Under the pieces are notes generated by a model. That model saw only the letters and a list, made by a program, of their open reading frames with translations. It did no database searches and had not been told where the DNA came from. This document shows, in pieces, positions 21,866 through 29,650 of a stretch of DNA of 42,873 bases (the stretch's first letter is position 1; each line of letters opens with the position of its first letter). This stretch comes from an uncultured Lachnospiraceae bacterium (GTDB taxonomy: Bacteria > Bacillota > Clostridia > Lachnospirales > Lachnospiraceae), in assembly GCA_946414825.1 (NCBI GenBank), contig CAMKQB010000009.1:1-42873 (forward strand), read 5' to 3'. Both the position numbers and the translations under genes were made by a program.

Positions 21866-22627
21866 TTATAAATAACCTAAATATGTTTTCTGAACTACAG
21901 AATGATACACAAGATCAATCATGGTATTGAAGTCGAAAACAGGAAGACCTGTTACCGACTGAATAGCCTTTGCATAAGGTGGCAGGTCACTACACTCCAG
22001 CAGGATGGCACCTATATCAGGATTTTCATCAACTATCTTTTTCGCAAGATTCGTGAGATCCTCCGTCAGCTTCTTATTATCAAAACTGTTGCTTCCGTAC
22101 CTTATTCCTGCAAAGCTATCCATATGTCCAACATCCTGAACCAGAATTCTGCTCTTATCAGTTCCAACCTTATTTAAGATGACCTCATCCAGATTGTCTC
22201 CACTAGCCGCGAAAACCAAAATCTTTTTCTTATATGATATTCCCGTCTTGATTAGTGGAAGCTGGCATAAGCTGGACAAAAATACCGGCACATCAACAGC
22301 CTCTCTTACATCCTCTTGAAAATGTGCGAAATATCCACAAGCACCGATGATAGCTCTTACGCCTTGCTCCTCCAGATACTTAGCAGCATCTATTATCTGA
22401 TTTTTTATAGCATCACTACCATTAAATAGTTCCTCTATTTCAAAGAACACATCCTTATATATAACAGGAAATGGGTATGTAGTTGCATTTGCTACATTTC
22501 CCGGAAGCTTAGGATATACAAGATGTACCGCTATGATACCGATAGCAAAGCCCGCTGTCGCATGCGGAGTCACAGTATGAATATCCAGAAGCTCCTCCCT
22601 GGTTTCTATCGTACTTTTCCAAATCAT
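21866..22627 (-). CDS. Aspartate/glutamate racemase-superfamily protein
   Basis: A 253-residue protein from the chosen ATG (22627), which has GAGGT upstream; an in-frame TTG at 22657 lacks one. The two catalytic Cys regions of the Asp/Glu/hydantoin racemase superfamily are visible: IGACGYFAH (Cys 97) and LLECSDLPPYA (Cys 212), consistent with two-base, cofactor-independent racemisation. Related families include maleate isomerase and hydantoin racemase, so racemase is a family statement, not a proven activity. It is the last gene of the metQ-opine dehydrogenase-aminotransferase-metNI set, 38 nt after metI, suggesting it inverts the stereocentre of the imported compound or of its product. Confidence 0.78.
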   Translation of the reverse strand: MIWKSTIETREELLDIHTVTPHATAGFAIGIIAVHLVYPKLPGNVANATTYPFPVIYKDVFFEIEELFNGSDAIKNQIIDAAKYLEEQGVRAIIGACGYFAHFQEDVREAVDVPVFLSSLCQLPLIKTGISYKKKILVFAASGDNLDEVILNKVGTDKSRILVQDVGHMDSFAGIRYGSNSFDNKKLTEDLTNLAKKIVDENPDIGAILLECSDLPPYAKAIQSVTGLPVFDFNTMIDLVYHSVVQKTYLGYL

Positions 22628-22665
22628 TTTTTCTGAAACCTCAAAATTTAAGTTCAACCGGAAAA

Positions 22666-23325
22666 CTAATTTATCCTTTTATCCAATCTATTTACTATAT
22701 GGATTCCAACCTCCTGAAATACCTGAACGATAACTACGAGAACAGCAACCGTAATAAGCATAACGTCTGTTTTATAACGATAGTATCCATAGTTAACTGC
22801 AATGGCTCCCAGTCCACCACCACCAACGAATCCAGCCATGGCTGAGTATCCCAGGATGGTCGCAAATGCAATCACCCCACCCATCAGTAGAGATGGTCTC
22901 GCCTCAGCAAGAAGTACCTTCCAGATAATCTGCCATGAGGAAGAACCCATTGCTTTTGCGGCTTCTATAACACCTGAGTCAACCTCCTTCAGAGATGACT
23001 CTACGAGTCTTGCTACGAATGGGGCAGCTGCAACAACTAAAGGAACGACTGTAGCAGTCGATCCTATGGTTGTTCCAACTATAAATCTCGTAAATGGGAG
23101 GATAGCCACTAGGAGAATCAGAAATGGTACTGATCTGATAACATTTGTAATAAATCCCACCACAAGATTGATAACTCTGTTTGGTTTGATTCCGGTTGGG
23201 CTGGTAATATTTAGTATTACTCCCATTGGAACACCTATAAGATATGCGAAGGCAGTCGATAGAATAACCATGTAGAAGGTCTCGCCCACTCCGCCTTTTA
23301 TCAGATCAAGTATCTGAGTATTCAT
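22666..23325 (-). CDS. metI: Methionine-type ABC transporter permease
   Basis: A 219-residue inner-membrane permease with five or six hydrophobic segments and the EAA-like loop VDSGVIEAAKAMGSSSWQIIWKVLL that contacts the ATPase. Length and sequence fit MetI/D-methionine permeases. The ATG follows the metN stop with no gap and has AAGGAGG upstream. The family transports L- and D-methionine and in some bacteria related compounds; here the neighbours suggest another amino-acid-like substrate. Confidence 0.93.
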   Translation of the reverse strand: MNTQILDLIKGGVGETFYMVILSTAFAYLIGVPMGVILNITSPTGIKPNRVINLVVGFITNVIRSVPFLILLVAILPFTRFIVGTTIGSTATVVPLVVAAAPFVARLVESSLKEVDSGVIEAAKAMGSSSWQIIWKVLLAEARPSLLMGGVIAFATILGYSAMAGFVGGGGLGAIAVNYGYYRYKTDVMLITVAVLVVIVQVFQEVGIHIVNRLDKRIN

Positions 23326-24342
23326 TTACGCTACCTCCTTATTCTTTCCATCTTCGCCTGAGATTTCCTCATACTTGATGTTATTTTTTTCGAGATACTT
23401 CTTTATTATCTCAACATATTTTTCTTCTGGACGTTCGATAAGAATCTGACCATAAGCGATACCACCAATGTCCTCTGTATTTGCGCCAAGTATATTCAGC
23501 TTCACCTGCGTCTCAAGAATCAGATTCGCAAGAACAGGTTCAAAGGAAGATAGTCCATCGTAAACTATTCTTATAGACTTTCTTTCATTTTTTATATCAT
23601 TTTTATTTCCGCCAGATAGAACCAGCTTCCTGCTAGTTTCAGACTGTGGATTGAGAAATATATCTCTTACTGCACCAAGCTCTTCTACCACACCATGATT
23701 CATGATTGCTACTCTGTCGCAGATCTGCTCCACAACCTTCATCTCATGAGTGATTACAACTATAGTTACTCCAAGTTCCTTATTTATCTTTTTTATGAGT
23801 GAAAGGACACCACTTGTTGTAAGGGGATCAAGAGCACTAGTCGCCTCATCGCAGAGAAGAACCTCCGGGTTTGTTGCAAGCGCTCTTGCTATAGCAACTC
23901 TCTGCTTCTGTCCGCCTGATAGCTGTGATGGATAAGATTTCTCCTTATCTGCAAGATCTACTATTTTAAGGAGTTCACGGGCTCTTTCCTTCGCCTCCTT
24001 TTTATTTACGCCTTCAAGCTCCAGAGGATAGCATACATTAGCGAGTACTGTTCTCTGCTCCAGAAGATTGAACTGCTGGAAGATCATTCCAATCTTTCTT
24101 CGGTAGCCTCTAAGCTCTTTACTCGAAGCTTTAACTAAATCATTTCCATCAAAATATACCGAGCCTTCAGTTGGTACCTCAAGAAGATTCATACAACGAA
24201 CAAGGGTTGATTTACCTGCACCTGAGAAACCGATTATTCCAAATATCTCACCTTTCTCGATTTCAAAGCTGACATTATCAACCGCTGTAACTGTATTTCC
24301 TTTTACTTTGAATGTCTTTGTAACATTTTCCAGTTTTATCAT
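23326..24342 (-). CDS. metN: Methionine-type ABC transporter ATPase
   Basis: A 338-residue ATPase with Walker A GFSGAGKS (38-45), Q-loop FQQFNLL, signature LSGGQ (141-145), Walker B LLCDE (162-166) and switch His in VVITHEMKVV. A C-terminal NIL domain (about 255-325), which in MetN binds substrate and inhibits transport, is present. I chose the ATG at 24342, with AAGGA upstream, over an in-frame TTG at 24369 that overlaps the aminotransferase gene. Confidence 0.93.
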   Translation of the reverse strand: MIKLENVTKTFKVKGNTVTAVDNVSFEIEKGEIFGIIGFSGAGKSTLVRCMNLLEVPTEGSVYFDGNDLVKASSKELRGYRRKIGMIFQQFNLLEQRTVLANVCYPLELEGVNKKEAKERARELLKIVDLADKEKSYPSQLSGGQKQRVAIARALATNPEVLLCDEATSALDPLTTSGVLSLIKKINKELGVTIVVITHEMKVVEQICDRVAIMNHGVVEELGAVRDIFLNPQSETSRKLVLSGGNKNDIKNERKSIRIVYDGLSSFEPVLANLILETQVKLNILGANTEDIGGIAYGQILIERPEEKYVEIIKKYLEKNNIKYEEISGEDGKNKEVA

Positions 24343-24365
24343 TTTTCTATTCCTTTTATGTGAGG

Positions 24366-25550
24366 TCAACTCTTGCCCCAGTTTATACGATTCTCTCTCA
24401 TATCCCTAAGCCGGGATAATCTGTCTATAGCCTCATTAAGAGTAGCATCACTTTTTGCAAAATGAAATCTCACATAGTTCTGTATATTTTCTTTAAAAAA
24501 GCTGGAGCCAGGAACAGGAGCGACGCCGATATGCTCTGCCATCCACTCAGAGAACTTAACATCATCAGTCACTCCAAATTCACTGACATCCACCATTACA
24601 TAGTAGGCCCCCTGCGGCTCTACAAATTTAAGACCTATATCTCGGAGACCCCCAAGAAATAGGTCCTTCATGTGAGTATAATGTTCACGAAGTTCATCGT
24701 AATACTCATCGCCAAACTCCAGTCCAACTACTGCCGCTTCCATAAGAGGCGCCGCCGCTCCCACAGTGAGAAAATCATGTACCTTTTTCACTCGGTCAAT
24801 GACCTCCTCGTTTGCGATAACATATCCCAGACGCCATCCAGTAATCGAATATGTCTTCGACAGTGAATTACAGATAATTGTTCTATCCTTCATTCCGGGA
24901 AGAGTTGACATATATGTATGTTTGTATGGCTCATAAATAATATGTTCATAAACCTCATCTGTGATAACGAACGTATCATAGTGCTTCGCAAGGTCAGCTA
25001 TCTTAGACAGTTCATCATAGGAGAATACTTTTCCAGATGGATTCGATGGATTACATACTATTATTGCCTTAACATCCTGTTTAAATGCATTTTCCAGCTC
25101 AACCGGATCAAATGTGAATTCAGGTGGATTTAGCGGAACATATATCGGTTCTGCTCCAGACAGTATTGCATCTGCTCCATAGTTCTCATAAAAAGGAGAG
25201 AAAACTATTACCTTATCACCAGGATTAGTCACAGCCATCATTGAAGCCATCATTGCTTCTGTGCTTCCGCACGTAACAACTATTTCCTTATCAGGCTCTA
25301 TTGCCTGTCCGGAAAATCTCTCGTGCTTTCTTGCAAGGGCCTCTCTGAAGTTCTGTGCTCCCCAGGTAAGGGCATATTGATGCGGTCCTGCCGAAGCTAC
25401 CTTAGCGAGTCTATCTGTTATCTCTCGGGGCGGATCAAAGTCCGGAAACCCTTGAGATAAATTGATAGCGCCGTACTGGTTTGAAATTCTTGTCATTCGC
25501 CTTATCACTGAATCCGTGAAGGTCGAGCTGCGCAAACTTAGTTTAGGCAT
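24366..25550 (-). CDS. Class I/II PLP-dependent aminotransferase
   Basis: A 394-residue fold-type I aminotransferase. The PLP lysine is Lys 232 in NSLSKTYSITGWR; NPSNPSGK lies at 167-174; the carboxylate-binding Arg is in NYVRFHFAK near the C-terminus. Closest in layout to aspartate/kynurenine-type transaminases, which also act on methionine or aromatic amino acids. The start overlaps the opine dehydrogenase stop by 8 nt and has only a weak ribosome site, so translation is coupled. With the dehydrogenase it could interconvert the 2-oxo acid and the amino acid released from an opine. Confidence 0.92.
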   Translation of the reverse strand: MPKLSLRSSTFTDSVIRRMTRISNQYGAINLSQGFPDFDPPREITDRLAKVASAGPHQYALTWGAQNFREALARKHERFSGQAIEPDKEIVVTCGSTEAMMASMMAVTNPGDKVIVFSPFYENYGADAILSGAEPIYVPLNPPEFTFDPVELENAFKQDVKAIIVCNPSNPSGKVFSYDELSKIADLAKHYDTFVITDEVYEHIIYEPYKHTYMSTLPGMKDRTIICNSLSKTYSITGWRLGYVIANEEVIDRVKKVHDFLTVGAAAPLMEAAVVGLEFGDEYYDELREHYTHMKDLFLGGLRDIGLKFVEPQGAYYVMVDVSEFGVTDDVKFSEWMAEHIGVAPVPGSSFFKENIQNYVRFHFAKSDATLNEAIDRLSRLRDMRENRINWGKS

Positions 25551-26775
25551 TTTCTTTATAAATTCCCTTATTTAAATATTCCAGGAGGGACTCTTTATCA
25601 AGGTGTCCGATTCCGAGATCATCCAGTGTGATTCCAGTTTTATAGAAATCCTTACCGGTCATTACTGATCCGAGGGTTATCATAGAATCAATTACTGGTG
25701 TCTCGACACCGAACTTTTTGCCCAGCTCGTGATACAAGTGACATCCTACTGGTACATCCTCTGTCACGTAGCGGTCTTGTATACTAAATGGTCCTGTTCT
25801 ATATCCTGTTTCCCATTGTTCGTCAAAAGGAACGATACAATCATCACCCATATATTCCGGACCAAGAATACTTGTTCTAGACAGGAAGTTTTTCTTAGGA
25901 TACTTCGCGATACCTACACCGATTGCTTCAGCAAGTGCTACTTCTTCAAGGAAGAAGGCATACTGAACTTCTGCAATAGATTCGCAATATGCATGGCTAT
26001 AAATTGAATAGGTGTACTTATCATTTCCACCATATATTCTGCCCCAGTTCTCCATAACTCCAACACCGAGAATAGTACCCGGACAATGAAGCACAGGATT
26101 TACATTACTAAAACCAATATCAAGAACGGTATTTCCACCGACTGGGCCATCGCCCTCTGTAATGGAATCGAAGCATCCAAGGTACTTAGTACTGTTCAGG
26201 AATACATCCTGATCAGTACTTGGAAGAGCAGCACCACGGAGAGTTTTAGCTCTATATACGAGCCACATATCAGATGTCTGCACTCCACCTTCCTTCTCAA
26301 CTCGTGTTCCATATGGAGCACTGGACCAACCACCTATAATAACCTTCTTAGTATTTCCGGTCTCACGAAGCTTTTTTCTAAGCTTTAGTGAACCATAGTT
26401 ATCAGGTATTATATGTATGATTTGGCCATCTTCGAGAACAGGGACTAATTGGTCGAAAAATATATCATGTGCTACTGATGGAATAGCAACAATAATAAGT
26501 TTCGCATCCTTTACAGCTTCAGAAATGTTTGAAGTGATTAGATTGATAAATGCTTTCCCTGTCCTCTTGAAGCCATATTGGTTTTTCTGTATACCTCCAA
26601 GAGTAATGCCCGTTTTTGCAACGTTTTTAAGGTTCTGATCAAAAAACTCTGGTAATTCAAATAACCTTACATCTTTATTTCCGCCAAGTACACAGTCAGC
26701 TGCACATGTTTTTCCAACAGCACCACCTCCAAGTACGGCGATTGGTGAATCCTTTAAAACATCATCCTCGAACAA
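25543..26775 (-). CDS. Octopine/nopaline-type opine dehydrogenase
   Basis: A 410-residue NAD(P)-dependent dehydrogenase. The Rossmann motif AVLGGGAVGKT is at 13-23, and the C-terminal octopine-dehydrogenase domain contains SNVNPVLHCPGTILG with the catalytic His 230. By family knowledge such enzymes reversibly condense an amino acid with a 2-oxo acid into an N-(carboxyalkyl) amino acid; the group includes CntM of the staphylopine metallophore route. There is no nicotianamine synthase-like or DapF-like gene here, so a staphylopine-type cluster is not supported. Start is TTG with AGGAGG 8 nt upstream, 36 nt after metQ. Whether it makes or cleaves the opine is open. Confidence 0.88.
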   Translation of the reverse strand: MFEDDVLKDSPIAVLGGGAVGKTCAADCVLGGNKDVRLFELPEFFDQNLKNVAKTGITLGGIQKNQYGFKRTGKAFINLITSNISEAVKDAKLIIVAIPSVAHDIFFDQLVPVLEDGQIIHIIPDNYGSLKLRKKLRETGNTKKVIIGGWSSAPYGTRVEKEGGVQTSDMWLVYRAKTLRGAALPSTDQDVFLNSTKYLGCFDSITEGDGPVGGNTVLDIGFSNVNPVLHCPGTILGVGVMENWGRIYGGNDKYTYSIYSHAYCESIAEVQYAFFLEEVALAEAIGVGIAKYPKKNFLSRTSILGPEYMGDDCIVPFDEQWETGYRTGPFSIQDRYVTEDVPVGCHLYHELGKKFGVETPVIDSMITLGSVMTGKDFYKTGITLDDLGIGHLDKESLLEYLNKGIYKENA

Positions 26776-26811: not shown

Positions 26812-27711
26812 TTAGAATACTGGTACAACTGCACCTGAATATGTATCGTTAATATAGTTCTTAACTTCTTCTGTAAGGATAGCATTCTTAAGCGCCTGTG
26901 ACTTAGCTGAATCCTCTTCACCTTCTCTAACGCATACATAGTTTGTATATGTCTCAGCGGCAAGTGAATCAGCAGCCTCAACTGCAACTGCATCACCAAG
27001 TCCAGCTTCGATTGCATAGTTACCATTTACAACTGCGAAGTCAACATCCTGAATTGACTTTGGAACCTGAGCTGCCTCGAGTTCCTGGATCTCAACGTTG
27101 TGCTCATTCTCTTCGATATCAAGAACTGTTGCCTGGATACCAACGCCTTCCTTAAGCTTGATAATACCCTGTGCTTCAAGAAGAAGAAGTGCTCTTGCTT
27201 CATTTGTTGAATCATTAGGTACTGCTATCTTAGCTCCATCAGCTATATTAGAAAGGTCTGAGGACTTACCTGCATATACACCCATTGGCTCGAAGTGAAC
27301 ACCAGCAAGTGTTACGATGTGAGTTCCATTTTCCTTGTTGAAATCATCAAGGTAAGGCTTATGCTGGAAGTAGTTTGCATCCAGATCACCATCTTCAAGT
27401 GCTGTGTTTGGAAGTACATAATCGTTGTACTCTACAACCTCAAGTGTCCAACCATCCTCTGCCAGATTATCCTTGATCTGCTCAAGTATCTCAGCGTGTG
27501 GAGTAACACATGCTCCAACCTTGATAACCTTGTCTTCTGAATCCTCTGCATCTGTGCTTGTCTCTTCAGTTTTCTCTTCTGTCTGTGCGGCTGCCTGAGT
27601 TGTCGCCTCAGTTTGTGCTGCCTCTGCATCACCATTTGATGAACCACATCCTGTGATAAGTGATGCTGTAAGTGATAATGCTAATACTAAACCTAAAATT
27701 TTCTTTCTCAT
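26812..27711 (-). CDS. metQ: MetQ/NlpA-type substrate-binding lipoprotein
   Basis: A 299-residue lipoprotein with lipobox LITGC (Cys 22), a Thr/Glu/Ala-rich linker to about residue 60, then the NlpA fold (VGACVTPHAEILEQIKDNL, QHKPYLDDFN, VPNDSTNEARALLLLEAQG). It supplies substrate to MetI and MetN, encoded in the same run but separated from them by opine dehydrogenase and aminotransferase genes. Ribosome site AGGAGGAAAAAATT. The 123-bp upstream gap has a dyad and a weak promoter matching the arrangement before the Cys leader. No S-box or T-box is visible. The exact substrate is unknown. Confidence 0.93.
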   Translation of the reverse strand: MRKKILGLVLALSLTASLITGCGSSNGDAEAAQTEATTQAAAQTEEKTEETSTDAEDSEDKVIKVGACVTPHAEILEQIKDNLAEDGWTLEVVEYNDYVLPNTALEDGDLDANYFQHKPYLDDFNKENGTHIVTLAGVHFEPMGVYAGKSSDLSNIADGAKIAVPNDSTNEARALLLLEAQGIIKLKEGVGIQATVLDIEENEHNVEIQELEAAQVPKSIQDVDFAVVNGNYAIEAGLGDAVAVEAADSLAAETYTNYVCVREGEEDSAKSQALKNAILTEEVKNYINDTYSGAVVPVF

Positions 27712-27834: not shown

Positions 27835-28746
27835 CTACACCGCCATTCTATCAGCCTCAAACCTTTTATTTACGTACGTTGCAGACACTAGACTTACATT
27901 TTCAAAGGCCTTCAGCCCATCACTTCTACCCTCAAAATATGTCTCCTGAATTTGCTTCGGATCCATCTGGACATCCAGTTTAAATCCTAGCGAGCAGAGC
28001 ACACATCTCATCTCATTTGAATCAAAACCACCGCACATAGCTTCGCCCAAGGACTCAGTTATTTCCTCAAGTCTTTTAACCCTAGCAGGAAAATCTCCTG
28101 AGCTTAGTGGATAGTCGAATACCACCTTACTTCCCACCTGAGAAAGCTCTGCGATCTGCCTAAGTGTCTCCGCAAAAACCTCTAGAGTGAGATAATAGGA
28201 AACACCCATAATACTGAAATAAGTCTTCTTCTCTGGATCAAAGCCCGCCTCAAGTAGCTTATCCACTAATCTATCCTTACTGAAATCTACAGGAACATAA
28301 TGAACATTAGGCCTACATATCCATTCTAGTTCACTTATACGTTCTAGCTTATAACGTTGGGTATCCGGATGATCCACCTCGAACACTTCTATATCATCAT
28401 TATCATTTCTAAAAGAAAATGTATCTGCCCCTGCACCACAGATAACATACTGAATCTTTCCATTCTCCTTTGCAAAGTCAGCTAGACCATTTTCATTAAA
28501 ATGCATTCTGGAAAGAGGAATAGGAAGAAAATAGTCCGCTATTAGTTTCTCTGCATTTTCCTTTCCCAGTCCATCAGAATCAATCATTCCTTCTCTTATC
28601 ATTTCAAGCATTTCTTCATACTCTTCCTTGCCCATAAAATCAAAAGCTAGGTAATCATCAAAGATTATTTCCCTGGAATAATAGGAATGCCATGCCCTTG
28701 CAAAAGCACATAACTTAGCTGTTATACTTTCCCTCTCGTCAACCAT
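27835..28746 (-). CDS. SAM-dependent methyltransferase, leucine carboxyl methyltransferase (LCMT/PPM) family
   Basis: A 303-residue class I methyltransferase. The SAM motif VICGAGADTFSFR (GAGADT 104-109) and the acidic EVDHP segment (123-127) are the LCMT/PPM family pattern; these enzymes methylate carboxyl or hydroxyl groups of small molecules or proteins. It is the first gene after the Cys-leader terminator, 66 nt downstream with ribosome site CGGAGGTTATC, and no promoter is evident in that gap. Its expression should therefore depend on antitermination. Its link to the opine dehydrogenase set is positional: same strand, 123-nt gap without a terminator, and matching upstream dyads. Confidence 0.8.
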   Translation of the reverse strand: MVDERESITAKLCAFARAWHSYYSREIIFDDYLAFDFMGKEEYEEMLEMIREGMIDSDGLGKENAEKLIADYFLPIPLSRMHFNENGLADFAKENGKIQYVICGAGADTFSFRNDNDDIEVFEVDHPDTQRYKLERISELEWICRPNVHYVPVDFSKDRLVDKLLEAGFDPEKKTYFSIMGVSYYLTLEVFAETLRQIAELSQVGSKVVFDYPLSSGDFPARVKRLEEITESLGEAMCGGFDSNEMRCVLCSLGFKLDVQMDPKQIQETYFEGRSDGLKAFENVSLVSATYVNKRFEADRMAV

Positions 28747-28811: not shown

Positions 28812-28848
28812 CAAAAAAAGCCCGAGCGCTTTGATTAGCACTCGGGCA
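28812..28848 (-). terminator. Attenuator terminator of the Cys leader
   Basis: Minus strand: 11-bp stem GCCCGAGTGCT / AGCGCTCGGGC (one G-T pair), loop AATCAA, then seven T. The 5' arm plus one flanking base, TGCCCGAGT, is complementary over 9 nt to ACTCGGGCA inside the upstream leader ORF (28934-28942). Confidence 0.9.
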
Positions 28849-28879
28849 AATGACTTCTTAATATACTTTAATTCGTAAT

Positions 28880-28999
28880 TCAGTGTTTATAGAGGCGCGT
28901 AAAATCGCACGTTAAAACACCAGCCATAGAATATGCCCGAGTTTTTAACATGCAACAGCAGCAAAGACTATTATTAAGATTTGCAGATAATTTAGTCAT
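28880..28999 (-). CDS. Cysteine-codon leader peptide (39 residues)
   Basis: Short ORF with ribosome site AGAAGGAAAAAAG directly before ATG. Residues 13-16 are four consecutive Cys codons (TGC TGC TGT TGC at 28952-28963), and residue 31 is a fifth. The peptide begins MTKLSANLNNSLCCCC and ends LYKH. No membrane helix or other functional signature is evident. It lies about 30 nt after the predicted transcription start and just before a strong intrinsic terminator, the classic layout of a ribosome-mediated attenuator. I interpret it as a sensor of charged tRNA-Cys rather than a functional peptide. Confidence 0.82.
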   Translation of the reverse strand: MTKLSANLNNSLCCCCMLKTRAYSMAGVLTCDFTRLYKH

Positions 29000-29035
29000 T
29001 CTTTTTTCCTTCTATAAATCTTTTAGACGAGGGTT

Positions 29036-29064
29036 ATATTATCATTATTCGCCTACCAAGTCAA
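29036..29064 (-). promoter_or_regulatory. Strong promoter of the Cys leader
   Basis: Minus strand: -35 TTGACT (29059-29064), 17-bp spacer, -10 TAATAT (29036-29041). It is 41 nt past the stop of the zinc-ribbon gene and directs transcription into the leader ORF and attenuator. Confidence 0.75.
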
Positions 29065-29079
29065 TAGGTTTTTCCTATT
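29063..29079. promoter_or_regulatory. Dyad operator candidate, copy A (Cys-leader promoter)
   Basis: AATAGGTTTTTCCTATT, a perfect 6-bp inverted repeat around five T, touching the -35 box of the leader promoter. Similar to copy B before metQ (27804-27822). It could also form a small hairpin after the zinc-ribbon gene, but no T-run follows on the minus strand. Confidence 0.5.
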
Positions 29080-29104
29080 ATCAGTTCAAGGATATTAGAA
29101 TAAA

Positions 29105-29650
29105 TTATTTAAATATCTTAAAGGAACCAAGTAGTGGAAGTGGTTTACATTCACCATTAATAGCATTTATTAGTCCCATTATCAGACAAACTGTCAGGAA
29201 TATAGAGCCCGCCATTATAGCCAGCCAACCAAGTATAGGAATGAATACAAGTATAACTGACGCTACTCCAAATATACATCCTGATATTATTAGAACAAAT
29301 ACATTATTCAAATGAAATCTAAAAAATGGATCTGATCTATCCGCCGAAAGAAGCGCAATTACAAGTCCTATCCAGGTCAGGTAACAAACAATCGCCGCGG
29401 TTTTAGGATCCATAGAGTAGCCTCCCGGCTTATTAGTCGTGGATTGCTGAACGTTCTGGCCATACTGTGTTCCTTGTTGCTGGAAACCTGTACCTTGGCC
29501 ATACTGCGCTCCCTGTTGCTGGTAGGCGCCCTGCGCTTGCTGACCCGTCTGTCCTTGAGGCTGCTGATAACCAGCATAGAGCGGAAATCCACAGAAAGGA
29601 CAATTAGTTCCCTCAGTTGTTACTTCGTTTCCACAATTATTACATCTCAT
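29105..29650 (-). CDS. Zinc-ribbon membrane protein with Gln/Gly-rich linker
   Basis: A 181-residue protein. The N-terminus is a zinc ribbon (CNNC near 3-6 and CPFC near 18-21), followed by a Gln, Gly and Tyr-rich linker (about 28-75) with repeated QGAQYGQ-like units, and then three hydrophobic segments resembling DUF4870-type membrane domains. Such proteins are common in Firmicutes without defined function. Ribosome site AAAGGAG. It is 14 nt after the preceding membrane protein gene and probably in one operon with it. Confidence 0.78.
   Translation of the reverse strand: MRCNNCGNEVTTEGTNCPFCGFPLYAGYQQPQGQTGQQAQGAYQQQGAQYGQGTGFQQQGTQYGQNVQQSTTNKPGGYSMDPKTAAIVCYLTWIGLVIALLSADRSDPFFRFHLNNVFVLIISGCIFGVASVILVFIPILGWLAIMAGSIFLTVCLIMGLINAINGECKPLPLLGSFKIFK

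Follow-up and report, generated by a model that had tools for sequence, protein, structure and literature searches.

Leader and operon in the window

The DNA analysed here, referred to as the window, is a stretch of 42,873 nucleotides (positions 1-42,873 of contig CAMKQB010000009.1, assembly GCA_946414825.1) from an uncultured Lachnospiraceae bacterium. A leader region (28,812-29,064) precedes an operon of seven genes, and the leader, promoter, hairpins and operon all lie on the minus strand. The first gene encodes a SAM-dependent methyltransferase (LCM, TIGR00027; 27835..28746) and is followed by genes for a MetQ/NlpA-like lipoprotein (26812..27711), an octopine/opine dehydrogenase family protein (25543..26775), a class I/II aminotransferase (24366..25550), a MetN-like ABC ATPase with a NIL domain (23326..24369), a MetI-like permease (22666..23325) and, as the last gene, an Asp/Glu racemase family protein (21866..22657), after which a terminator-like hairpin is found (21860-21838).

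Upstream of the operon lies a promoter (TTGACT-17-TAATAT with an extended -10 TG, 29064-29036), described as strong in the initial annotation. The site CCTATTGAC is present in all nine relatives with a methyltransferase leader, but its score (9/12) is at chance level, such sites being no commoner than in shuffles (19 found versus 18.6 expected), so that its weight lies in its conservation. A ribosome-binding site, AGAAGGA (29007..29013), precedes a leader ORF of 39 residues (28880..28999; peptide MTKLSANLNNSLCCCCMLKTRAYSMAGVLTCDFTRLYKH), related to leaders in relatives, with four consecutive Cys codons, TGC TGC TGT TGC (28952..28963), at which TGT and TGC interchange in relatives. Inside the last Cys codon begins the 5' arm of an 11-bp hairpin, P1 (28953-28943, GCATGTTAAAA, with 28917-28907, TTTTAACGTGC), a proposed anti-antiterminator supported by folding and by the consensus of covariance model R2. 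P1 encloses the 9-nt antiterminator ACTCGGGCA (28942-28934), which the alignment and fold predict to be paired back upon by a conserved segment, ATGGCTGGTGTTTT (28914..28927). The antiterminator is also the perfect 9-nt complement of the terminator 5' arm segment TGCCCGAGT (28848-28840). The intrinsic terminator (28813..28847) consists of an 11-bp stem (28847-28820) and a run of seven T, and the first operon gene starts at 28746, 66 nt past that run. In the details checked, from the ORF to the spacing of the gene, the description given by the initial annotation is confirmed.

The leader folds better than 200 of 200 shuffles (z -4.3). The sequence TGYTGYTGYTGY occurs at 22 sites in the genome, three of them in a short frame with an upstream start codon, among which only the window leader has a ribosome-site-like sequence as judged by eye. 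An ORF on the plus strand (28950-29315) is antisense to the Cys run, reads as polyGln and was taken as no gene.

Methyltransferase relatives were recovered from three members of the genus and from one distant locus (L008, 33% identity) among the 60 relatives searched; no leader was seen in the 420 nt upstream of the distant one. A scan of named genomes gave 11 methyltransferase loci in Lachnospiraceae and Ruminococcus/Oscillospiraceae, mostly rumen MAGs and some of them close to the window, and 9 of the 11 have a Cys-rich leader, with two to four Cys codons in a run, between promoter and methyltransferase. At L017 the methyltransferase follows metB-like and cysK genes in a cluster that opens with a five-Cys leader (MRHEFRFFEDCCCCCYPKR...) and its terminator; L018 shows an identical gene order on a contig that begins inside metB, so that the leader cannot be judged. 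The order in Ruminococcus L020 is leader, methyltransferase, metB-like, cysK-like and LysR-like gene (named by eye). From these three gene orders it follows that the window operon belongs with cysteine synthesis, the link to cysteine being its association with metB-cysK in relatives.

Two further features of these neighbourhoods were observed. A glutamate-cysteine ligase-like gene, another link to thiol metabolism, follows the methyltransferase/opine operon at L010 (17562-18806, named by eye) and L017 (15957-17255, below the family cut-off). A LysR-family-like regulator lies inside or after the metB-cysK-methyltransferase cluster at L017 (8782-9693), L011 (2876-3787) and L020 (12355-13296), and is absent from the window operon.

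Occurrence of Cys-run leaders in the genus and beyond

The same genome carries a second leader on contig C10, with three Cys codons (MTKSFVTKMNNCCCRILSSRTCNMAGVLVCRCCRPL) and its own terminator, before metB-cysK. Across the genus, a Cys-run leader with a terminator was found at 18 of 21 metB-cysK loci (C10 included). No leader is present at L099, and at two loci the upstream sequence is too short, so that the proportion is 18 of 19 among those that are readable. The runs vary from CCC to CCCCCC, CCCWCCC and CCSCCC. At four loci (L089-L092) the leader ORF stops at most two codons beyond the Cys run, and the antiterminator is kept there 16-18 nt downstream.

A covariance search for the leader in relatives, suggested by the initial annotation, uncovered a family. 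Model R2 matched 33 of 61 genus genomes, the source genome included (41 places), and model R1 matched 10 of 61; one R1 match, L141, has no Cys leader. Ten of the 41 places are training rows or identical to them, and each of the 22 others that were read encodes a peptide with adjacent Cys codons. Match rates are low outside the genus. In the rest of the order 16 of 391 other genomes were matched (23 places), where 14 places have at least two adjacent Cys codons, eight have a weaker motif (MCMCMCRM, MCGCRM, WCRM, CGRM and MCMMRM among them) and one is false (L154). The rest of the class gave 7 of 390 other genomes (8 places), seven places with adjacent Cys codons and one with MCMRM. These order and class rates are probably underestimates, because the filters were strict and a single model was used. 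At the gathering threshold no Rfam family matched the leader in the window; a relaxed scan of seven loci placed none on a leader, its six hits, all below family cut-offs, lying elsewhere.

In the genus the element precedes metY-cysK2, metB-cysK, the methyltransferase operon and polar amino-acid ABC transporters; over all the matches read, most targets are metB-like, cysK, metY, amino-acid transporter and MetQ-like genes. NCBIfam models place cysK and metY above their cut-offs, and the names metB, MetQ, glutamate-cysteine ligase and the transporters are family-level calls, cystine being just one among the below-cut-off matches of the transporter proteins. Other targets, including a few peptidase-like genes and one LysR-like gene, were named by eye.

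In most wider matches the Cys codons are followed by a conserved C-C-R-M peptide motif. The leader ORF at L179 (from about 1500 on the reversed locus) stops right after ICCRMR, and both the antiterminator and ATGGCTGG, which belongs to the conserved segment ATGGCTGGTGTTTT, are kept downstream of the stop codon, which identifies the SRA and MAG parts of the longer peptide motif as RNA signals. At L163, L165, L147, L150 and L184 the Cys run is replaced by MCMMRM, MWCRM or MCMRM, variants that possibly sense Met or a mixed signal.

A separate feature was seen at L110, L112, L114, L116-L122, L130, L131 and some others, where the leader ribosome site (GGAGGCG...) can pair with a stretch close to the leader end (...CGCCTC). 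This complementarity reached p < 0.05 in 12 of 22 additional genus leaders, 5 of 21 from the order, 1 of 8 from the class and 4 of 29 of the first set; the same pairing was looked for in the window leader and its group and is absent there. Where present, it may limit the leader to the pioneer ribosome.

Pairing, covariation and folding of the leaders

Pairing of the stretch after the Cys codons with the terminator 5' arm was evaluated in 28 leaders, 22 from Lachnospiraceae and six from Ruminococcus/Oscillospiraceae; the leaders are related, so that the 28 tests are not independent. The pairing beats dinucleotide shuffles at p < 0.05 in 20 leaders, the eight that do not reach this level being L084, L087, L088, L019, L021, L022 (0.050), L023 and L025, with p values of 0.73 and 0.75 for L023 and L025. 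Terminators swapped in from other groups equal the native one in 0-5 of 22-27 cases for 26 of the 28 leaders, and do as well in 15 of 27 cases at L098 and 7 of 26 at L023. In the window the match has p 0.017 (300 shuffles), and none of 25 swapped terminators from other groups equals it. The antiterminator starts 4-25 nt past the Cys run in 26 of the 28 leaders. Among the tests of mechanism, the robust result is that the Cys codons stand about one ribosome footprint ahead of the antiterminator.

Pairing is kept with different sequences in different leaders, as in CUCGGGCA/UGCCCGAG, CUUGUUUCGU/ACGAAGCAAG and CAUUCUUCGC/GCGAGGAAUG. In an alignment of ten leaders 84% of the cells of the 9-bp helix are paired, and the covariation of 0.257 compares with 0.132 for shuffles, none of the 500 being as high; when the partner is displaced by one column, the pairing falls to 42-48%. 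Two of the five measures are weak in this alignment, namely the double-changed pairs (four; 22 of 500 shuffles) and the further pair types (five; 406 of 500). A larger alignment of 33 R2 matches (32 distinct rows) was fitted to R2, whose structure omits the antiterminator:terminator helix; ten of its rows had served to train the model, and a further one is identical to a training row. Here the helix is 95.1% paired (0 of 500 shuffles), with covariation of 0.156 versus 0.076 (0 of 500 shuffles), five pairs with double changes (0 of 500) and pair types at 74 of 500. The antiterminator:terminator helix is conserved with compensatory changes. Had the Cys run or this complementarity varied freely among relatives, the initial annotation would have regarded its own proposal as refuted; both are conserved.

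Equilibrium folding was carried out on transcripts cut before the terminator 3' arm, with the ribosome footprint placed on the first Cys codon, placed at the stop codon, or left out. Median antiterminator pairing over the 28 leaders was 0.96 for the stalled state, against 0.39 when the ribosome was absent and 0.11 when it stood at the stop codon, and the stalled value exceeded the free one in 26 of 28, by more than 0.1 in 15 of 28. In group C, textbook switching (0.91-1.00 versus 0.00) is seen in five of the six leaders, the exception being L096 (0.93, 0.90), and in the short-ORF group L089-L091 stalled pairing is just 0.02-0.14. For the window leader the values were 0.98 (stalled), 0.93 (free) and 0.03 (stop codon), and with such a free state P1 would have to act kinetically. 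An independent fold calculation on the wider set (44 leaders tried, 25 with values) found stalled above free in 15 of 25, with medians alike. As a full model of the switch equilibrium folding was set aside: it fits some groups only, and it distinguishes the stalled from the free state for roughly half of the leaders, the window leader not being among them.

When the ribosome was stepped one codon at a time through the 22 Lachnospiraceae leaders, the shift toward the antiterminator peaked at the first Cys codon (median -6.3 kcal/mol, favourable in 19 of 22), with an equal shift three codons on in the 17 leaders whose antiterminator is still free there. Positions before the Cys codons also shift toward the antiterminator (median -3.0 to -5.7), and the terminator remains the more stable full-length state in nearly all leaders of this set. 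Once it has moved a few codons beyond the Cys run, the ribosome lies over the antiterminator. The wider-set scan, which omits 6 of 44 leaders whose terminator or peptide went unrecognised by the script, put the shift with the ribosome on the first Cys codon at -1.8 (24 of 36 favourable, two more covered), and the six Ruminococcus leaders showed no peak at the Cys codons.

A probable cysteine attenuator and its alternatives

T-boxes are the usual charged-tRNA sensors of Firmicutes. A T-box was considered for the window and rejected, there being no RF00230 match in it. Elsewhere in the genome four RF00230 matches occur, two of them over the cut-off, before thrS-, leuA-, trpE- and pheS-like genes (named by eye), and none of the four precedes a cysteine gene.

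Amino-acid leader attenuators are also known from Firmicutes. Attenuators with a His leader are described from Peptostreptococcaceae, Erysipelotrichales and B. cereus (PMC9413887), and His leaders also precede hisS/hisZ in bacilli (PMC2965389); a Leu-rich attenuator of ilv-leu in S. aureus has genetic support (PMC5794164). These resemble the present leaders in kind, some of them replacing T-boxes, but they concern histidine or leucine and no sulfur genes. Cys-run leaders have been reported outside Firmicutes. In mycobacteria polycysteine short leaderless ORFs are reported as cysteine attenuators (Canestrari 2020, cited in PMC13236596), and in Actinobacteria Cys-run leaders were predicted before cys operons, with no conserved terminator hairpin (PMC1262725). 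Both resemble the present leaders in a short Cys-run ORF, a position before cys operons and a response to cysteine, the last presumed here. The window leader differs from the mycobacterial ORFs in having a ribosome site and a 5' leader, so that it is not leaderless, and from the actinobacterial ones in having an antiterminator and an intrinsic terminator. Finally, uORFC-8-2 of Rhodobacterales lies before cysS and has tandem Cys codons in a stem, a terminal U run and a proposed Cys-tRNA sensing role (PMC8632094). It is confined to cysS in alphaproteobacteria and has two Cys codons, whereas the present leaders precede operons of sulfur amino-acid synthesis and transport in Clostridia. In the window the first gene is a methyltransferase, and no cysS was recognised among the targets, most of which were named by eye. 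The initial annotation knew of no described clostridial example, and none was found among the best-ranked matches in the open-access literature; leader attenuators as a kind are already known and, judged by these matches, a Cys type that would act regulon-wide in Clostridia appears to be new.

The leader is very probably a cysteine-specific, ribosome-mediated transcription attenuator that senses charged tRNA-Cys. We infer the stalling, the readthrough and the cysteine signal from features read directly in the sequence, that is, the parts, their conservation, covariation and spacing, and the gene context. The trp/his logic invoked by the initial annotation gains support from the kept Cys run, the spacing, the pairing with compensatory changes and the sulfur-gene targets. 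As in the trp/his attenuators of proteobacteria, in which a run of regulatory codons in a leader ORF is coupled to an alternative antiterminator and an intrinsic terminator and stalling gives readthrough, there is an ORF with several codons of the presumed regulated amino acid (CCCC with a ribosome site, conserved and predicted to be translated), an intrinsic terminator with a mutually exclusive antiterminator (pairing, covariation) and a set of genes serving the same amino acid (metB-like, cysK, metY). The differences are the cysteine codons, the occurrence in Clostridia and the use of one RNA/peptide motif at several operons. With Cys-tRNA ample, the leading ribosome would pass the four Cys codons and either cover the antiterminator or leave P1 locking it; in both cases the terminator would form and the operon would be off. 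With Cys-tRNA short, the ribosome would stall on the Cys codons, its footprint blocking the P1 5' arm and ending just short of the antiterminator. The freed antiterminator would then pair with the terminator 5' arm, and the polymerase would read into the methyltransferase/MetNIQ-like/opine dehydrogenase operon.

Other readings of the same features were weighed. That a chance ORF lies next to an ordinary terminator of the upstream gene, with no regulation, agrees with the promoter score taken alone, which is at chance, and is contradicted by the conservation, the covariation and the gene context; this is the least probable of the alternatives and hardly credible. Cys-motif copper uORFs of proteobacteria are a model for metal-sensing nascent peptides, and here too a Cys-rich peptide could arrest the ribosome in response to metal, redox or thiol state instead of Cys-tRNA supply. 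The conserved C-C-R-M of most wider matches would fit such a peptide, as would the few leaders with a single Cys at that position (WCRM, CMMRM). Among the targets read, however, genes for sulfur amino-acid synthesis and amino-acid transporters predominate and none looks metal-related (most being named by eye), run length and neighbours vary (CCCC, CCCCCC, CCCWCCC, CCSCCC), four ORFs stop at most two codons beyond the run, and the SRA and MAG parts, kept past the stop at L179, are RNA signals, all of which leaves this reading unlikely.

Control could also reside mainly in a DNA-binding regulator, the leader being minor or constitutive. A dyad (ACCTATTGACTTGGTAGG, 29052..29069, minus strand, a motif match) covers the -35 of the window promoter as a candidate operator of a sulfur regulator, and the dyad (ACCTAYTRAYNNRGTAGG; ACCTATTGACNNGGTAGG) lies over the -35 of three sulfur operons, those of the window, metB-cysK and metY-cysK2, the sites elsewhere being L013 15625-15642 and L014 11202-11219 (C10:41201-41218). 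No further exact match to the motif, which was derived from these sites, occurs in the genome (92% complete), and all three precede sulfur genes; at metY-cysK2 (C51) the dyad stands without any leader, and one operon of the set thus lacks an attenuator. Matches with two mismatches number 13 versus 24 for the reversed control and are no commoner, and a looser form occurs in 17 of 31 loci scanned and in none of the six Ruminococcus loci. Against the leader being dispensable stands its retention where the scan did not find the dyad (the six Ruminococcus loci, L085, L089, L093, L096 and L098), and both control layers can coexist; a regulator that leaves the leader only a minor part is improbable. 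A DNA-binding sulfur regulator, which could be of the Rrf2/CymR kind, may act as well as the attenuator.

Beyond the window, it is reasonably likely that one RNA/leader-peptide family is the main cysteine sensor of the sulfur regulon in many Clostridia lineages, some of which would combine it with an underlying DNA-binding sulfur regulator. Part of this family reading, and held with similar, moderate confidence, is the proposed peptide consensus C-C-R-M..S-R-A..M-A-G, in which S-R-A and M-A-G would be by-products of the antiterminator and its lock. The element is matched by no Rfam family in the loci scanned. Through its matches, operons of gut and rumen Clostridia that are probably regulated by cysteine can be listed, and the methyltransferase/opine dehydrogenase/MetNIQ-like operon, so far uncharacterised, gains a connection with cysteine metabolism. 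The source genome, in which T-box matches precede thr, leu, trp and phe genes, has predicted poly-Cys attenuators before two sulfur operons; if the family reading is true, the family would serve cysteine as T-boxes serve other amino acids.
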